Shown one piece after another: positions 1,944 through 21,130 of a stretch of 27,519 bases of DNA. The translations under genes were made by a program, and so were the position numbers. The DNA is from a virus: IMG/VR virus record IMGVR_UViG_3300023174_002894, positions 1-27,519 of that record; one strand, given 5' to 3'. Below the pieces are notes generated by a model. The model was given only the letters and a program-made list of their open reading frames with translations. It had not been told where the DNA came from and searched no databases. Position 1 is the first letter of the stretch, and each line of letters starts with the position of its first letter.

Positions 1944-2507
1944 TTATTTTAACAAAGTTGCAACTGCTTCTGGCAAGACTGGAGATTCCATTCTCTCTGG
2001 GTGCCACACAATACCAAAGATTGGCAAATGTTCATGTCTGAATGCTTCAATTGTTTGATCTGGTTCATGTATTGCAAGAGGTATCATACCTTTACCTAAC
2101 TGAGTAATAGTTTGACCGTGATAGCTGTTAACAACAATTTTCTTACCATCCATTATTACTTCATGATCTGTATGATCATGTGCTGGAACTATATCCCAGT
2201 CGATTTGATTCACACCACCCGATAACTCATTGACAGCAAATGCTCCATGACAAACACCGAGGATTGGTTTCTTTAATTTGATTGCGTGATAGAAAAGATT
2301 GTTTTCTGTTATATTACGTGCGATGCTATCCGAACCACCAGATAGAACAAGACAATCAAAATCAATTGTCTCATCTACCTTACCGATATTACCGTGAGGG
2401 ATCAAATGATGATTGCCTAGAAAAGAATACCAGCTTCTCTCTAGGCAATCGAATAAAAAATTATTTGGAGGGATATGGTAATCCCTCTGTGAAATCAAAA
2501 TTTTCAT
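1944..2507 (-). CDS. Class I glutamine amidotransferase-like protein (peptidase C26/PuuD-like)
   Basis: 187 aa, one GATase1 domain over nearly its whole length. The triad is visible and intact: Cys86 in GVCHG, and His169 and Glu171 in WHPERME. LSGG at 56-58 supplies the oxyanion turn. Such domains hydrolyse glutamine or gamma-glutamyl amides to release ammonia or glutamate. No synthase domain is fused. The nearest candidate partner in the unit is the ATP-pyrophosphatase at 6369-7382, which lacks its own glutaminase domain; that pairing is inference. A hydrolase of a gamma-glutamyl conjugate (PuuD type) is the alternative. It is the last protein gene before the tRNA promoters and lies 18 bases after the diiron gene at 2526, probably co-transcribed with it. 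Confidence 0.8.
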   Translation of the reverse strand: MKILISQRDYHIPPNNFLFDCLERSWYSFLGNHHLIPHGNIGKVDETIDFDCLVLSGGSDSIARNITENNLFYHAIKLKKPILGVCHGAFAVNELSGGVNQIDWDIVPAHDHTDHEVIMDGKKIVVNSYHGQTITQLGKGMIPLAIHEPDQTIEAFRHEHLPIFGIVWHPERMESPVLPEAVATLLK

Positions 2508-2525: not shown

Positions 2526-3323
2526 TTACGCTGCTACAGCCTCATTTGGATTTACAGTTGCTGCTTGCTTACCATTGAACGCAACGCAAAGGTCACGATG
2601 TGGTTCGCCATAAGCATTCAACATGATTTCTTGTACTTCAGCAGAAGCAGTTTTGAAGTCACCTAGTGAAGTGCATGAACACTCAAATAGATCCCAAACC
2701 ATTTCTTTAACCAAAGACATACATTCAGCTTGTGCTTCTGGAGTAGTAACGATCTTCTCAAGCATCAAACGACCAATATTGCTGTGGAACTTCTCGTCAC
2801 GTGCAACGCGATCATAACGCTTCTGAATGAACTCATCACCAGCAACTTTAGCCATAGTCTGCCATACAGAAGCAGCACGACCTTCAGCCATATACTGATA
2901 CAAGTGCATCATGATTGGGTTACCATGGGCTTCGTATTTCTGTACTAGGGATGCTCCCATACGTACGTCAACTTTACCATAAGTTGCCCAGATTTTCTCT
3001 AGATCTGGCTTTTCGCCAGTTAGATGCTCAAGAACTTCGTAAACAATACGGAAGTGCTCGGCTTCGTCCCATGCTTGCTTAGAAAGCAAACGGCACTCTT
3101 CTGGATCAGTAAGTGCTGGGAGTTCGGAAACTTTCTTAGAAAGTTCAATCATATTCATACGCTCATTTGATAGGCGGATATGGAAGAAGTTTTCTAGTTC
3201 TTTCTTAGATGGCTTATTAGCAAAGAATTGCTTAGTTTGGATTTCCGCTACTTTATGTAGAGGCATAAACGATTCCCAAAGGTCGTCTAGGAATTCTTTT
3301 GCTGGTTTAGCTGTTGCAGTCAT
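2526..3323 (-). CDS. Ferritin-like diiron protein, copy A
   Basis: 265 aa, all-helical. The four-helix diiron pattern is visible: Glu54 (SNERMN), Glu87-x-x-His90 (DEAEHF), Glu147 (AEGRA) and Glu177-x-x-His180 (DEKFHSN). Two ExxH motifs plus two lone Glu is the ligand set of ferritin-like diiron carboxylate proteins (oxygenases, hydroxylases, R2). The substrate is unknown. It is a diverged paralogue of the protein at 4564-5283, sharing NERMN, DEA-H, AEGRA and FHSNIG, with a longer C-terminal tail. It follows a Bug binding-protein gene, as copy B does. A T4-type late box TATAAATA lies 66 bases upstream and a small hairpin (3368-3380) sits in its leader. MiaE, aldehyde-deformylating oxygenase and heme-oxygenase-fold enzymes were considered, but the surrounding motifs do not fit. 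Confidence 0.75.
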   Translation of the reverse strand: MTATAKPAKEFLDDLWESFMPLHKVAEIQTKQFFANKPSKKELENFFHIRLSNERMNMIELSKKVSELPALTDPEECRLLSKQAWDEAEHFRIVYEVLEHLTGEKPDLEKIWATYGKVDVRMGASLVQKYEAHGNPIMMHLYQYMAEGRAASVWQTMAKVAGDEFIQKRYDRVARDEKFHSNIGRLMLEKIVTTPEAQAECMSLVKEMVWDLFECSCTSLGDFKTASAEVQEIMLNAYGEPHRDLCVAFNGKQAATVNPNEAVAA

Positions 3324-3388
3324 TTTTTTTACCCTTTAAGTATAAAAGTTAAAGATTATTGAAATATGGGAACCATTCCCAATACATT

Positions 3389-3396
3389 TATTTATA
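3389..3396 (-). promoter_or_regulatory. T4-type late promoter box TATAAATA
   Basis: TATAAATA on the minus strand in the only sizeable gap (85 bases) before the diiron copy A gene, 66 bases upstream of its ATG. In T4 this box alone defines sigma-gp55 late promoters. It suggests late expression of copy A independent of the upstream genes. Confidence 0.5.
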
Positions 3397-3408
3397 ACGA
3401 AAATCGCC

Positions 3409-4386
3409 TCACTTTTGGTTAGTTTTAGATAAAACCGACTCAACTAGAGGTTGCCACTGTTTTTCTCTGGATACTATCCAGTTTTTCATTGATTCTGGAT
3501 TCTGTAATTCTGGTCTTTCTAGGAGTAAATTTTCGTAGAAAATCGCCTTTGCTTCTTCCGACTTTATCGCCTTAGTAAACTCACGAGTATACCACTCAAC
3601 TACATCTTTTGCAGTACCTGCTGGAAGCATAAGAGCCCACATTCCTGTAATATTGAAGTTTGGTAGCGCAGTATCCAATAATGGAATTCCAGGAAATTGG
3701 CGCATTGGGGGTGGAGCACTTAGAGCAATAATATTGATACGACCATCTTTGTAAAGAGCATTTGCAACTAGAGATGGAACGATCGCATAACGCACGTTGC
3801 CACTAGCAACATCGACTAGAGCATCGACTGGACCTTTATGGTCAACTCTAACTACTCCATCTTTGCCTTCTGTAAATTTTACTCTGGCAGAAATACCTTC
3901 ATAAACTAAACGTGCGCCACCAGATGCAGCAATGGAAACTTTCTCATTCTTTAAAGAATCTAAGAATTGTTTAGGAGTTTTAGCTGGATCATTTGGGTGC
4001 GATGCAATCACGAATGGACTAGATGCAATGTGTGTTGGGTAAACAAAACTGTCAGTAGTATAACTACGACCATTACCTTGGACTTGAACTTTGTCCATTG
4101 CTGCAATACCTGGAACTGATACATTGGTAACAGAGTAACCATCAGCTGGTTTCTTACTCAACTCCTCAGTGCCGATAACACCACCTGCGCCTGGACGATT
4201 GATGATAATAAACTTAGCACCAGTGTTCTTCTCAACTTCTTTGGCTAATACTCGGAATGACAATTCATTTACACTTCCAGGTGTCCATGCCATTATCGCT
4301 TCAATAGGTTTTGTTGGTTGCCACTGAGCGAATACAGTGGATGATACAACTAATAAACTACCAATAACAATTGTTTTTAAATTCAT
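3409..4386 (-). CDS. Bug/TctC-family periplasmic solute-binding protein, copy 1
   Basis: 325 aa. A signal peptide of about 20 residues (cleavage near VFA-QW) directs it to the periplasm. The family signature is clear: P-x-AIMAWTPG near residues 30-37, NRPGAGGVIGTEELSKKPADG at about 63-83, and a two-lobed layout of normal length. Bug proteins bind small carboxylates and related compounds and normally feed the TctA/TctB membrane components. Neither is in the window, so this protein would have to use host permeases, act in sensing, or sequester ligand. Shine-Dalgarno AAGAAAGAG is present. It is followed by diiron copy A and preceded by diiron copy B. It is a distant paralogue of 5401-6372. Such genes are common in Burkholderiales, which hints at the host. 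Confidence 0.88.
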   Translation of the reverse strand: MNLKTIVIGSLLVVSSTVFAQWQPTKPIEAIMAWTPGSVNELSFRVLAKEVEKNTGAKFIIINRPGAGGVIGTEELSKKPADGYSVTNVSVPGIAAMDKVQVQGNGRSYTTDSFVYPTHIASSPFVIASHPNDPAKTPKQFLDSLKNEKVSIAASGGARLVYEGISARVKFTEGKDGVVRVDHKGPVDALVDVASGNVRYAIVPSLVANALYKDGRINIIALSAPPPMRQFPGIPLLDTALPNFNITGMWALMLPAGTAKDVVEWYTREFTKAIKSEEAKAIFYENLLLERPELQNPESMKNWIVSREKQWQPLVESVLSKTNQK

Positions 4387-4486
4387 TTGGATACTCTTTC
4401 TTCATTCGGATAATAAATGCTTCATCGGATTCATAACTAGTAGACCATACCCAAATTTTCTTTAGGATAGATTTAGTTTTTTCCAT
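4358..4486 (-). CDS. Possible 42-aa small protein
   Basis: A frame starting MEKTKSIL and ending NNCYW lies in the 177-base gap between diiron copy B and the Bug gene, overlapping the start of the latter by 29 bases. It is basic and Trp/Tyr containing, with no membrane segment. There is no convincing Shine-Dalgarno. I do not recognise it. A hairpin with 8-bp arms (4511-4518, 4530-4537) precedes it. Confidence 0.28.
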   Translation of the reverse strand: MEKTKSILKKIWVWSTSYESDEAFIIRMKKEYPNEFKNNCYW

Positions 4487-4563
4487 ATTAATTTAGTCCA
4501 GTGTTCGATGGGTGTTTGTAGATTTCTTTCAAACACCACACCTCCAACCAGAATTCCCTAACT

Positions 4564-5283
4564 TTAAGCAGCCAATGGCTCATATTTATAGTTGTATGCT
4601 TGTTCAACAATTGCAGCTGCTTCTGGAAGATATGAAGTTCCTTTAGCAGAAATTGCGTACAAGTCTTTACGCATTTGATTTGCCATTTCAGTGGCACGTT
4701 CTTGCGCTTCTGGAGTAGTTACTAACTGCTCCAATTTCCATTTACCGATGTTGCTATGGAAACCTTCATCACGAGCGATCTTGGCATAACGATGACTAAT
4801 ATATTCATCTTCGATGGTTTCTGCCATTTGGTTCCAAACTGCTTCTGCGCGACCTTCAGCGATTGTTTGATACAATGCTAATGCTAACTCATCAGTTTGC
4901 GCTTCGTACTTGTCTAACAAACTAGCACCTTTATTATGGATACGTGTTTCCCAAGATGCAGATGCTGCTTCTAAGTCAACTTCTTCACCAGTAATGTGCT
5001 CAATAACTTCTTTTACCATACGGTAGTGTTGGGCTTCATCGAGTGCTTGTTTGCTGAGCAATTGAAGTTCTTCAGTGCTCATGTTTAGAGGTGCTTCTGC
5101 GATTTTCTTGGAGATTTCAATTAGATTCATACGCTCATTAACCATACGACCAGTAAAGTGGTCTACAAGGACTTCCTTGCTTGGTTGGCTTTCGAAATAT
5201 GCCTTAACCTGCATTGCGCTGGCTTTGAATAAGGCTTCGTTTGATGCTGACAATTCTTTGACAAAATCTTTGGCTGATTTCAT
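4564..5283 (-). CDS. Ferritin-like diiron protein, copy B
   Basis: 239 aa. Same diiron ligand pattern as copy A: Glu50 (NERMN), Glu83-x-x-His86 (DEAQHY), Glu143 (AEGRA), Glu173-x-x-His176 (DEGFHSN). The core from NERMN to FHSNIG aligns with copy A without large gaps. Copy B is shorter at the N-terminus and lacks the C-terminal extension. Shine-Dalgarno AGGGAAG lies upstream of the ATG. The 117-base leader between the Bug gene at 5401 and this start carries two copies of a 41-base repeat built on CCCAGCG. A second Bug gene follows. An oxidase or oxygenase role is likely from the ligand set; the substrate is unknown. Confidence 0.75.
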   Translation of the reverse strand: MKSAKDFVKELSASNEALFKASAMQVKAYFESQPSKEVLVDHFTGRMVNERMNLIEISKKIAEAPLNMSTEELQLLSKQALDEAQHYRMVKEVIEHITGEEVDLEAASASWETRIHNKGASLLDKYEAQTDELALALYQTIAEGRAEAVWNQMAETIEDEYISHRYAKIARDEGFHSNIGKWKLEQLVTTPEAQERATEMANQMRKDLYAISAKGTSYLPEAAAIVEQAYNYKYEPLAA

Positions 5284-5316
5284 TTTCTTCCCTTTGTGGA
5301 ATAGTTTAAGTTTTGA

Positions 5317-5396
5317 TCGCTGGGTTATTATTAACGCTGGGATACGGTTAGTAATAGTCGCTGGGTCATCAAAGACGCTGGGATATATGTTATTTA
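5317..5396 (-). repeat. Two imperfect 41-base direct repeats with CCCAGCG boxes
   Basis: CCCAGCG occurs four times on the minus strand (5318-5324, 5335-5341, 5359-5365, 5376-5382), spaced 17, 24 and 17 bases. This makes two copies of a unit of form TATCCCAGCG-n9-ACCCAGCGA. The stretch lies in the leader of diiron copy B, is GC-richer than its surroundings and is not open in any frame. It could be an operator or a protein-binding RNA element. Confidence 0.7.
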
Positions 5397-5400
5397 GTAA

Positions 5401-6372
5401 TTAATTTGGCTTGGGTAGCGACTCTACGTAAGGTTTCCATTGTTTTCTTAAGTCTACCATTTCCTTTAGGGTATTTTCTGGACCAATAGATTTCTTATCT
5501 AAGAAGATATAATTATCTTCCATAAACTTCTTATACTCATCAGTGTTTATCGCCTCAACCACCTGTTTTACATACCATTCTACTATTTCTGGTGGAGTCT
5601 TCGGTGGTAGCATAAAGTTCCAGCATCCATACATATTTAATCCTGGAACATAATCTTTTGCGAGAGGTACATTATCAGGGAGCCCTTTTAATCTACGCTC
5701 TCCTGCAACTGCCAACATCTTAACCTTACCCGAATTTATAATTGTTAGTGCTGGTGCAATTGGCATGATTCCAAACTCTGTTCCTGTCTTTCCATCAAAC
5801 TGTGCAACACTTACTGCTGCTGGGACTGGACCTTTGAATGTTATTGGCATAACTTTGGTTTTATCTATCTTTAGATTTTGTGTAAAGTACTCGAAAGTTA
5901 GATAATGTGCAGATCCACCAACAGCAAAATTAATGTCTCTGCCAGTTTTAACCTCTGCGATTAATTCTTGTAGAGTGTTAACTTTACTTTCTTTGCTGGC
6001 TATAAACACCATTGGACTCTTGCCGATGTTTGTTACAAAGGATAGTTCAAGTGGACTTCTTTTTATTACATGGCTGAAGTGTGAATCTGAAAATAAAAAA
6101 CCACTGACACATGATGGAATACCAACTGTATATCCATCTGGCTTTGCTTCTAGTAAATCTCTAAGCATGATATTACCATCAGCACCTGCTTCATTCTTAA
6201 TAGAAAAATTAGCAATACCTTTACTCTCAATATGTTTAGAAATTAATCGTGCTGTTAGTTCTCCACCAGATCCTGCTGTTGTTGGTAGTAACATAGTTAT
6301 TACCTGCTTTTGATTTGGTTCCCATGCATGCGCAATCAAAGGGAACAACAAAATTAACATAATCTTTTTCAC
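5401..6372 (-). CDS. Bug/TctC-family periplasmic solute-binding protein, copy 2
   Basis: 323 aa with a signal peptide of 16 residues (cleavage near AHA-WE). TctC hallmarks: ITMLLPTTAGSGGELTARL in the first lobe, NEAGADGNIMLRDLLEAKPDG at about 60-80 (the family's N-x-x-GA-x-G...DGY stretch), and GCWNFMLPP in the second lobe. The pocket loop reads TTAGSGGE rather than the TPGSVNE of copy 1, so the two probably bind different ligands. Full family length. Its ATG overlaps the stop of the ATP-pyrophosphatase gene by four bases (ATGA), indicating co-translation. No TctA/TctB is nearby. Confidence 0.87.
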   Translation of the reverse strand: MKKIMLILLFPLIAHAWEPNQKQVITMLLPTTAGSGGELTARLISKHIESKGIANFSIKNEAGADGNIMLRDLLEAKPDGYTVGIPSCVSGFLFSDSHFSHVIKRSPLELSFVTNIGKSPMVFIASKESKVNTLQELIAEVKTGRDINFAVGGSAHYLTFEYFTQNLKIDKTKVMPITFKGPVPAAVSVAQFDGKTGTEFGIMPIAPALTIINSGKVKMLAVAGERRLKGLPDNVPLAKDYVPGLNMYGCWNFMLPPKTPPEIVEWYVKQVVEAINTDEYKKFMEDNYIFLDKKSIGPENTLKEMVDLRKQWKPYVESLPKPN

Positions 6373-7382
6373 AAAAAATCCTTTCTATATAAACTTGTAC
6401 CATTTATCAAGTCCATGACCCACTGATGGTCAACAATATGGTAGTGGGATGTCTGAACTGTTTTATTTGCTGCATAAAATTGTAAACCACAATCTTTTAA
6501 AAATTTCCTGGATGCCCATTTATAAGTCTTTGGATCAGGTGATAAAAACTTTTCTTCATACCTACCAATAGACCATTTCTGGAAATCTATATTGTCATAA
6601 AAAGCAAGGAATCGCTCGGCACCTGGAAGTGCACGTTGACGATTTACCTTACCCATTTGCCACTTAGAATTTAATTCAATGAACGACAAATACTCAGGGA
6701 CAGTTTTTACTGGTTCTCCTGGCCATTTCTCTAACATAGAACCTACTAATTCTACCTGATCATTAGTTAGATAATCTTCCCAAGCCATAGTAAATTCTTC
6801 TGGTTTTAGCGTAAAATATCTACCGTATAATTGATCACCAAGATACCCACTAACAACTAATCCGTCATCAAACAATGGAGTCATTAATGGAACTGACAGA
6901 TGAGCCTCAATACCTCTTGGAAGAATATACTTCTCGAGCATATTGGCAGATTCAATTATAGAACTGTAGTTACAAAAAACTTTAAGTTGTTTTGGATCAG
7001 CAACTTCCATTAATGAAAATAAAGCAGTAGTACTATCCAAACCACCAGACCAAGAAATATTAATCTTCTTACCAGTTGCTACTATTTTCAGAGCAGTCTC
7101 ATGGCAGATCTGTTTAAATGTTTTTCTGAATGATGGATCATACTCAGGAATTGGTTCATATTTTGCTAATTTAAGATAGTGTGGTATAGTATTAGTTCTA
7201 TCCTGAAACATATCCATATTACCTTGATGGATTCTAGCATCTTCCATGTCCCACTGCTCTAGATTTAGTTTTTGATAGATTGGTAGTACTCTATCAAAAT
7301 GCTCTGATTTATACGGATCCAACTTAGGTGAATTAATAATATTATCATCACGTAATCTATGTATAATACAGTTCTGAATCAT
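6369..7382 (-). CDS. Asparagine-synthetase-type ATP-pyrophosphatase without glutaminase domain
   Basis: 337 aa. The PP-loop SGGLDS is at 112-117 (ISWSGGLDSTTALF), the ATP-pyrophosphate binding signature of the AsnB C-terminal domain, with a second conserved stretch SGYLGDQLYG near 178-187. The N-terminal 100 residues are not a glutaminase domain and carry no catalytic Cys2. Enzymes of this type adenylate a carboxylate or carbonyl and transfer nitrogen or sulfur. A separate class I amidotransferase lies at the end of the same unit (1944-2507), a possible ammonia supplier (inference). ATGA overlaps exist on both sides. Function remains open: amide ligase, peptide or lasso-type cyclase-like, or nucleotide/cofactor amidation. 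Confidence 0.75.
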   Translation of the reverse strand: MIQNCIIHRLRDDNIINSPKLDPYKSEHFDRVLPIYQKLNLEQWDMEDARIHQGNMDMFQDRTNTIPHYLKLAKYEPIPEYDPSFRKTFKQICHETALKIVATGKKINISWSGGLDSTTALFSLMEVADPKQLKVFCNYSSIIESANMLEKYILPRGIEAHLSVPLMTPLFDDGLVVSGYLGDQLYGRYFTLKPEEFTMAWEDYLTNDQVELVGSMLEKWPGEPVKTVPEYLSFIELNSKWQMGKVNRQRALPGAERFLAFYDNIDFQKWSIGRYEEKFLSPDPKTYKWASRKFLKDCGLQFYAANKTVQTSHYHIVDHQWVMDLINGTSLYRKDFL

Positions 7383-7690
7383 TCACCCAACCTCAATCTT
7401 ACTGGAAGAATATTGGGGCGCAACCCCCATCTCCCATTATGATCAGTTATAATAACATAATCTCTATTTGAAATAATTCTTTGTTTGTTATCCCTTACAT
7501 ATTTTATAGCGTATTCTGGTGCGTGGATAAGAAACTCAGGAACAAGGATCTCGTAAGCATCAGTGTGTTTTGTAAACTCATCCTCTTGTGATGAGTCATA
7601 CCAGAATATATCTTTCAATATTCTGGTATTCCCATACAAACAAGGATAAAAGGGGATATTCCATATCCATCCTCTAATAAGAGGGTTCAT
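7379..7690 (-). CDS. Unknown 103-aa protein coupled to the ATP-pyrophosphatase
   Basis: Soluble, aromatic-rich protein (WIWNIPFYPCLYGN near the N-terminus, a basic C-terminus ending RLRLGE). I recognise no family. Its start shares one base with the DUF2061 stop (TAATG) and its end overlaps the ATP-pyrophosphatase start by four bases. It therefore probably works with the latter, for example as a small substrate or accessory protein. Too little is visible to say more. Confidence 0.7.
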   Translation of the reverse strand: MNPLIRGWIWNIPFYPCLYGNTRILKDIFWYDSSQEDEFTKHTDAYEILVPEFLIHAPEYAIKYVRDNKQRIISNRDYVIITDHNGRWGLRPNILPVRLRLGE

Positions 7691-20079: not shown

Positions 20080-20439
20080 TTATCTACCTTTCCATGCGTC
20101 TACTATGACGTCTATTCTAGTTTTATTAATTTTAAGGATTGACTCACAGAACAATTTTTTGTCAGATGCTTTGGCTTTACCAATTGCTTCTTGTAGCTGA
20201 GCAATGGATGTAGCCTGAGGATCTTTTCTCAACTCAGTATATACCTTAAGATGCTGAATTTTAGTTTCTGCGTCTGTCCAGTTTTTATCTTCACAATTCA
20301 ATTTCTCAATTGCAATTTTTGTAGATACTAGATTATCAAACATAACAGGGTCGTGTGGCTTTGGCCAAATGGCAGATATTGCCATAATTGAACAACCATT
20401 TAAACACAGAACTAATGATAGTAGTATAAGTTTTTTCAT
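20080..20439 (-). CDS. 119-aa lipoprotein
   Basis: Signal peptide with lipobox LNGC (Cys16): [17 protein letters not shown]. The mature part is helical, with two further Cys (EKLNCEDKN near 47-55 and KLFCESIL near 135-142 of the gene's codon run), possibly a disulfide. No family recognised. A spanin (Rz1-like) role is possible for a short lipoprotein but there is no Pro-rich segment or Rz partner beside it. Overlaps the iscA stop by four bases. Confidence 0.7.
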
Positions 20440-20747
20440 ACGCTAAATGAACTCCCGCATCCACAAGTAGATTTTGCATTAGGGTTTGATATAACAAACT
20501 GAGAACCTTTTAGTTTGTTGCTTGTATAATCTATTGTAGCATTGTCAAAATACTGCATGCTCATTGGATCAATTAAAAGACTATCAATAACGAGGTCATC
20601 TTCTTGTTTATCTTCTTCAAGAGTAAACCCATAGTTGAACCCAGAGCATCCACCACCAGATATAAATGCTCTTACATATTTCATTGATACATCATCCATT
20701 AAGATTTCATCAATTTGTTTTTTTGCGGATTGTGTTACGGTAATCAT
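20436..20747 (-). CDS. iscA: A-type iron-sulfur carrier protein
   Basis: 103 aa. The three conserved cysteines are present: Cys34 (GGGCSGFNY) and Cys95/Cys97 (STCGCGSSF). I place the start at [10 protein letters not shown] because that ATG overlaps the iscU stop as ATGA. Upstream codons in the same frame belong to iscU's region. A-type carriers pass Fe-S clusters from the IscU scaffold to apo-enzymes. Single A-type carriers are known in marine phages; having it with a scaffold protein is less usual. Confidence 0.9.
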
Positions 20748-21130
20748 GAGCATGAACACTTTAATTGATAGTCGTTTATTGCTGCTTTGATGGCATCTTC
20801 GGCTAGGATAGAACAATGTATTTTAACTGGAGGGAGCGCAAGCTCTTCTGCAATTTCACTATTCTTGATCTGTCCTGCTTGGTCAAGTGTTTTGCCCTTA
20901 ACCCATTCAGTGACCAATGAACTGCTTGCAATAGCACTACCGCAACCATAAGTCTTAAACTTAGCATCCTCAATTATTCCTTGGTCATTGACCTTTATTT
21001 GTAATTTCATCACATCACCACATGCTGGTGCTCCGACCATTCCAGTACCAACCGATGGATCATTTTTATCTAAAGAACCCACATTTCGTGGATTCTCATA
21101 GTGGTCGATAACTTTGTCTGAGTAAGCCAT
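20744..21130 (-). CDS. iscU: Iron-sulfur cluster scaffold protein
   Basis: 128 aa, full length. Ligands Cys37, Asp39, Cys63, His105 and Cys106 are all present ([30 protein letters not shown]). LPPVK at 99-103 is the HscA chaperone recognition motif, so it should interact with the host HscA/HscB and IscS. Cluster assembly on this scaffold would need host cysteine desulfurase, since no iscS is in the window. AAGGA six bases before the ATG overlaps the stop of the 29-aa peptide. ATGA coupling to iscA keeps the pair together. The extra C-terminal Cys pair (KCSCS) is unusual. Confidence 0.93.

Follow-up and report, generated by a model that had tools for sequence, protein, structure and literature searches.

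What does a virus do with two periplasmic solute-binding receptors of the Bug/TctC kind interleaved with two ferritin-like diiron proteins? The question is raised by an array in the complete 27.5-kb viral record IMGVR_UViG_3300023174_002894 (27,519 nucleotides, referred to below as the window), which also carries T4-like genes for RNase H, DUF6433 and a dCMP deaminase. A preliminary description, made from the sequence alone, had recognised four genes at positions 2526 to 6372 and explained them as a Bug-diiron cassette duplicated as a pair. Its coordinates, minus strand and gene calls are all right and every gene is intact, but the unit extends further at both ends. In transcription order, with all genes on the minus strand, it comprises a PP-loop ligase-like gene (6369..7382, overlapping the Bug1 start by 4 bases), Bug1 (5401..6372), diiron A (4564..5283), Bug2 (3409..4386), diiron B (2526..3323) and a class-I glutamine-amidotransferase/peptidase C26-like hydrolase (GAT; 1944..2507). 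We propose that this array is quite possibly, though by no means surely, the local form of a late-expressed island for uptake and tailoring that is widespread among T4-like phages whose hosts are uncultured bacteria. The observations that carry this proposal are the gene content, the intact catalytic residues, a recurrent linkage among relatives, an enrichment of late promoters and a virus-specific clade of Bug receptors. Genes of the relatives were called by a simple longest-open-reading-frame script and the IMG/VR contigs are redundant and fragmentary, so that all counts given here are loci, not independent events.

The two diiron proteins (A, 239 aa; B, 265 aa) are paralogues with 46% identity, far above chance. 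The complete ligand sets read in them earlier were confirmed: the order E, ExxH, E, ExxH is found in both, and the residues E54, E87xxH90, E147 and E177xxH180 (diiron B numbering) are invariant in 83/83 relatives. The second-shell residues R50, N57, Q83, D86, Y142, W154, D163, Y170 and D176 are invariant in the relatives as well. The AlphaFold2 model of diiron B is a helical bundle (predicted local distance difference test, pLDDT, 91), and the ligand set on this predicted bundle is that of a ferritin-like diiron carboxylate protein. Among the known proteins, the order of the ligands in a helical bundle, together with weak profile and distant fold matches, likens the pair to the branch of PaaA/PaaC, DUF455 and the aldehyde-deformylating oxygenase (ADO). 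The profiles gave only weak similarity to PaaA_PaaC and DUF455 for 55 members (PaaA_PaaC in 23/55, best 1.7e-5), and diiron B differs from that branch in remaining under the family cut-offs, with 15.9 bits against PaaA_PaaC (cut-off 28.5); the score against the ADO family TIGR04059 is 13 bits (cut-off 222.65). Its model has no fold match in the PDB at E <= 0.001, the nearest folds, all distant, being Dps-like proteins, UndA, TenA, ADO and PaaA/C. Assignment as ADO, PaaA, ribonucleotide reductase or ferritin was rejected, every score lying below its cut-off, and no curated family fits the two proteins.

The distribution of the family also sets it apart. Relatives were found 96 times in viral contigs versus 2 times in ~85,000 prokaryote genomes, a contrast that is approximate because the peptide patterns were not quite the same in the two scans. 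With invariant ligands, no curated family, no close fold and an almost exclusive occurrence in viral contigs, this virus-borne diiron family looks new. The only two matches in cellular genomes (L083 and L084) come from one Rhodobacteraceae and one Nitrosopumilaceae metagenome-assembled genome; since both carry the same island gene types, the two may derive from phages whose contigs were assigned to these assemblies in binning.

The receptors can be placed with more precision. Bug1 (323 aa, GTG start) and Bug2 (325 aa) are both members of Pfam TctC (PF03401), with 80.8 bits (1.6e-22) and 72.4 bits (5.8e-20) against a cut-off of 27, and are 29-31% identical to each other, far above chance. The predicted structure of Bug2 (pLDDT 91) has the two-domain Bug fold, with template-modelling scores of 0.74-0.81 to TphC, Bug27, BugD and MatC. 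Both proteins appear to open with a Sec-type signal ending in AHA-W or VFA-Q, read by eye, as the preliminary description had also proposed. The difference between their pocket loops to which it drew attention holds too, each loop type being conserved inside its own clade, and these consistent differences are in line with two ligands. In bacteria, the pincer motif P-F-x-A-G-G-x-x-D is almost ubiquitous among Bugs, as a signature and not as an absolute requirement (PMC5812351). The window Bugs depart from it, reading TAGSGGE and TPGSVNE. The position of the pincer Asp is occupied by Glu in 31/31 viral Bugs and by Asp in 27/27 bacterial Bugs, Glu41 of Bug2 being the replacement of the family Asp; in a second viral set, which overlaps the first, Glu is found in 76/77.

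In the tree, the 31 viral Bugs are set apart as a single group from the 27 sampled bacterial Bugs, with 100% support, and a recent acquisition from a host is therefore unsupported within this sampling. Compared with the known Bug/TctC proteins (BugD, Bug27, AdpC, TphC), those of the window share the TctC profile, the Bug fold, the export signal and an orphan layout as in Bordetella (PMC5812351), and differ in belonging to a virus-only clade with Glu for the bacterial pincer Asp. To judge from the alignments and the tree, this clade looks new. Orphan Bugs without a nearby permease gene are known from bacteria, where such Bugs also adjoin enzymes whose presumed substrate is the imported acid (PMC5812351). 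In several phages of the window lineage, a third, shorter Bug-like receptor lies upstream of the PP-loop gene (L011:2456-3328; Pfam TctC 7.9e-6, just under the cut-off), with homologues in L008, L012-L014 and L021.

Was the Bug-diiron pair duplicated as a unit? In a tree of 41 sequences, diiron B is placed with the second of the two diiron genes of L024, L025 and L048 (bootstrap/SH-aLRT 100/99), phages in which these two genes adjoin each other and no Bug separates them, and a clade joining A and B of the window lineage is rejected (approximately unbiased test, p = 0.001). A quick tree of 83 sequences recovers the same grouping without rejecting the A-plus-B clade (p = 0.12), and the Bug tree decides neither way (p = 0.57). 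Two diiron genes in tandem, uninterrupted by a Bug, are also present in L055, L056, L058 and L065, and in the deep members L003, L015 and L018 the array encloses a sulfotransferase-like gene, a methyltransferase gene or both. Duplication of the pair as a unit, the central suggestion of the preliminary description, is accordingly rejected by the 41-sequence tree and by synteny. As read from these sequences, the duplication of the diiron gene predates the window lineage and is common to the phages with adjacent diiron genes. The tree evidence is good rather than final, because some of the branches are long and the group was defined with the first tree already in view. Given this grouping, the Bug-free tandem pairs and the genes inside the deep-member arrays, the alternating order Bug-diiron-Bug-diiron looks like a compact, derived arrangement.

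Variants of the island are carried by hundreds of uncultured viruses. Two narrow receptor scans supplied the neighbourhoods of the viral Bugs. Within 6 genes of 78 Bug1-type loci we found methyltransferase-like genes in 63, sulfotransferase-like genes (c4) in 61, 2-oxoglutarate (2OG)-oxygenase-like genes (c16) in 55, P-loop genes (c3) in 35, GAT in 24 and diiron genes in 22, eight of these 22 being from the window lineage; the identities of the methyltransferase, c3, c4 and c16 neighbours rest on motifs and weak matches. The usual order at these loci is methyltransferase, an optional diiron-GAT, Bug, c4, c16 and c3.

Approached from the enzymes, and outside the window lineage, a receptor or TctA lies within 6 genes of GAT in 35/61 loci and of a diiron gene in 17/57. 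At least three groups of receptors occur near diiron/GAT: the viral Bugs, divergent TctC-like proteins with TctA, and DctP of the tripartite ATP-independent periplasmic (TRAP) transporters, which stands near diiron genes without GAT (E 1.8e-32). A phage TctA lies beside diiron/GAT in L058 (E 6.6e-91), L025, L026, L046, L048, L179, L188, L194 and L196. L009 and L010 are 99% and 98% identical in their flanks and differ on a large scale at one place alone, where ~2 kb with Bug1 and diiron A are present in one and absent from the other. Taken together, these observations speak for a genuine link between receptor and diiron protein. The earlier idea that the partners act together is therefore upheld in part: adjacency recurs with three receptor types, sometimes with TctA, and Bug1-diiron A behaves as one block, but each partner often stands alone.

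In one phage group, a porin-like barrel gene stands between TctA and a TctC-like gene. The barrel, of the outer-membrane type, was located at L090:4129-4683, L092:9449-10036 and L096:9442-10026, with matches for two of the three. A TctB between TctA and TctC was considered for this position and rejected, the gene there being the outer-membrane barrel.

The constant partner of the diiron gene, in fact nearly an obligate one, is GAT and not Bug, because a search started from GAT alone found a diiron gene within 5 genes in 78/79 viral loci. GAT matches Pfam Peptidase_C26 (1.3e-17), and its catalytic residues C86, H169 and E171 are invariant in 27/27 relatives; with a Cys-His-Glu triad and a C26 profile, it has the marks of a class-I glutamine amidotransferase. 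At the other end of the array, the PP-loop protein is a candidate ATP-dependent ligase of the asparagine-synthetase/QueC/LarE-like kind, with weak matches to QueC, LarE and NAD-synthase and a motif, SGGLDST, that is invariant in 14 relatives except for one L/I/V position. It is accompanied by a gene for a 103-aa protein with no Pfam match (7379..7690, minus strand), and each of the two is present in 21/22 window-lineage loci.

Late expression is suggested by the sequence TATAAATA, the T4 late-promoter consensus. A match lies upstream of diiron B (3389..3396, minus strand), and the same sequence is found within 150 bp upstream of 27/78 distinct diiron genes versus 9/564 unlabelled genes in the same loci. 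In the controls on the diiron upstream regions, the reverse strand gave 1/78 and the Markov controls a mean of 2.1. From these motif counts, the diiron gene would often be served by a T4-type late promoter of its own. Bug1 and diiron A are separated by 117 bp, which contain four CCCAGCG heptamers (5318..5382, minus strand), a possible regulatory element; the window has 5 of them versus 0.48 expected, a count reached by 0/100 shuffles. In the gap between diiron A and Bug2 (4387-4563, minus strand) there are a GGTGTTTG/CAAACACC hairpin and a mini open reading frame of ~39 codons that overlaps the Bug2 start.

In the mechanism that we infer, Bug1 and Bug2 would be exported to the periplasm, where each would capture a different small carboxylate and hand it to a TctA permease. 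In some relatives the phage itself would supply this permease; for the window lineage, transport would have to rest on one of the host, because the 174-kb relative lacks TctA. The two cytoplasmic diiron proteins, expressed in part from late promoters, would oxidise the acid, either as imported or as a conjugate, in an O2-dependent reaction, GAT would remove or transfer a gamma-glutamyl or amide group, and the PP-loop protein would activate the acid. That a host TctA carries the acid, that the diiron proteins oxidise it and that GAT and the PP-loop protein play the parts given here are thus proposals, as are the substrate, the order of the steps and the benefit to the phage.

Several observations weigh against an uptake-and-tailoring island. 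The window has no TctA, as had been remarked before, and neither has the 174-kb relative; TctB is absent from 9/9 phage records tested, and a complete tripartite tricarboxylate transporter (TctA and TctB with TctC) was not found. Outside the window lineage, 56/70 viral Bugs stand without a diiron gene in their neighbourhood, and many of the marine diiron loci lack a neighbouring receptor. The preliminary description had named the separate, unpaired occurrence of the two genes in related phages as evidence against its view, and this is in part what we see, with only 14 of these 70 viral Bugs paired and many diiron genes Bug-free. The family and fold matches of the diiron proteins are all too weak for a reaction to be named from them. 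Finally, the ligand class of the viral Bugs could differ from carboxylates, because the near-universal Asp of the carboxylate pincer is Glu in them.

The main rival, unlikely but partly compatible with uptake and tailoring, is an island for the decoration of the surface or virion. In it, the diiron, GAT, methyltransferase, sulfotransferase-like, 2OG-oxygenase-like and APS-kinase-like (adenosine 5'-phosphosulfate kinase) genes would make a modified group resembling phosphoramidate, sulfate or carbamoyl and, late in infection, link it to a glycan of the cell surface or virion, with the Bugs supplying a precursor. In its favour are the late-promoter match before the diiron genes, the proximity of the diiron gene in marine phages to genes of what we presume to be the gp13/gp14 type, and a neighbourhood that includes sulfotransferase-like, methyltransferase, APS-kinase/nucleotidyltransferase and NodU-like carbamoyltransferase genes. 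A further point for it is that the best NCBIfam match of GAT (5e-20, under the cut-off) is the gamma-glutamyl-CDP-amidate hydrolase of O-methyl phosphoramidate synthesis in Campylobacter (E 5e-20 to 1e-29), the Cj1417-type enzyme whose class-I triad it keeps. However, the GATs of three phages reach only 72.4, 86.9 and 103.8 bits against this family (NF045546), under half of the equivalog cut-off of 250. The O-methyl phosphoramidate pathway is expected to need a PPDK_N-type glutamine kinase, and this partner was found in 0/16 phage records, some of them fragments; a complete Campylobacter-type pathway was rejected on this ground. Moreover, the window lineage lacks most of the decorating partners, and glycosyltransferases were not seen as constant neighbours. 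Two of the genes named above were noted as follows: a fusion of APS-kinase-like and nicotinamide-mononucleotide-adenylyltransferase-like parts adjoins the island at L305:9862-10737, L313:9874-10674 and L058:1906-2754, and the NodU-like carbamoyltransferase (L046:4726-6273, E 1.6e-43) lies near diiron/GAT/TctA in a 96-kb phage contig.

Less probable still is a cargo hotspot, in which Bug, diiron/GAT and the other genes would be independent auxiliary genes at permissive sites with no common pathway. The great variation in gene order and content, the majority of Bugs without a diiron gene and the position of the window island beside an array of 15 tRNAs would suit it, but it leaves unexplained the nearly obligate pairing of diiron and GAT, the recurrence of different receptor groups beside them and the presence or absence of Bug1-diiron A as a single block. 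It is very improbable that the Bugs serve in the periplasm as sensors or as decoys that might, for instance, block uptake or superinfection, with the diiron proteins as mere scavengers of iron or O2 and no tailoring. The window lineage lacks a permease and the diiron ligand set is ferritin-like, but in other phages such receptors are accompanied by TctA and a porin-like gene, and the invariant second-shell residues, together with a fixed hydrolase partner whose active site is intact, look enzymatic.

Elsewhere in the window, overlapping genes for NifU-N (IscU-like) and Fe-S_biosyn (IscA-like) proteins at 20436-21130 (minus strand) form an Fe-S cluster scaffold pair that is possibly relevant to iron supply.

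Every component of the uptake-and-tailoring island belongs to a known kind. The nearest earlier mention, as far as the consulted part of the source extends, is that of SUP05 viral contigs with tctA auxiliary genes and a 2OG-Fe(II) oxygenase gene in one set (PMC4164917). That set resembles the present one in a phage-borne tripartite tricarboxylate transporter gene alongside a 2OG-oxygenase; it differs in that tctA was reported as a domain match of unknown role and that no diiron, GAT or Bug array is described in that part. Neither the viral diiron family and its constant partner GAT nor the viral Bugs of the Glu type, nor the combination of them all, is described in the searched literature, and 50,697 deposited phages gave no match for the window diiron proteins or Bug2. 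The earlier remark that no phage system of this form has been described holds within the scope of these searches.

A further-reaching version, which we consider rather doubtful, is a virus-specific oxidative tailoring pathway in which an unrecognised class of acids fitting the Glu-type pocket would have a dedicated uptake through receptors of the phage and, in some cases, its permease and porin, and a new family of paired diiron oxygenases and a gamma-glutamyl hydrolase would convert the acid late into a compound required for virion production or host takeover. The auxiliary genes of phages are usually single genes borrowed from the host, and this island is a multi-gene set that is mainly viral and recurs in many uncultured phages. 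If the coupling of receptor and diiron protein is true, these phages would change which organic acids the infected cell imports and then oxidise them by a chemistry of their own.

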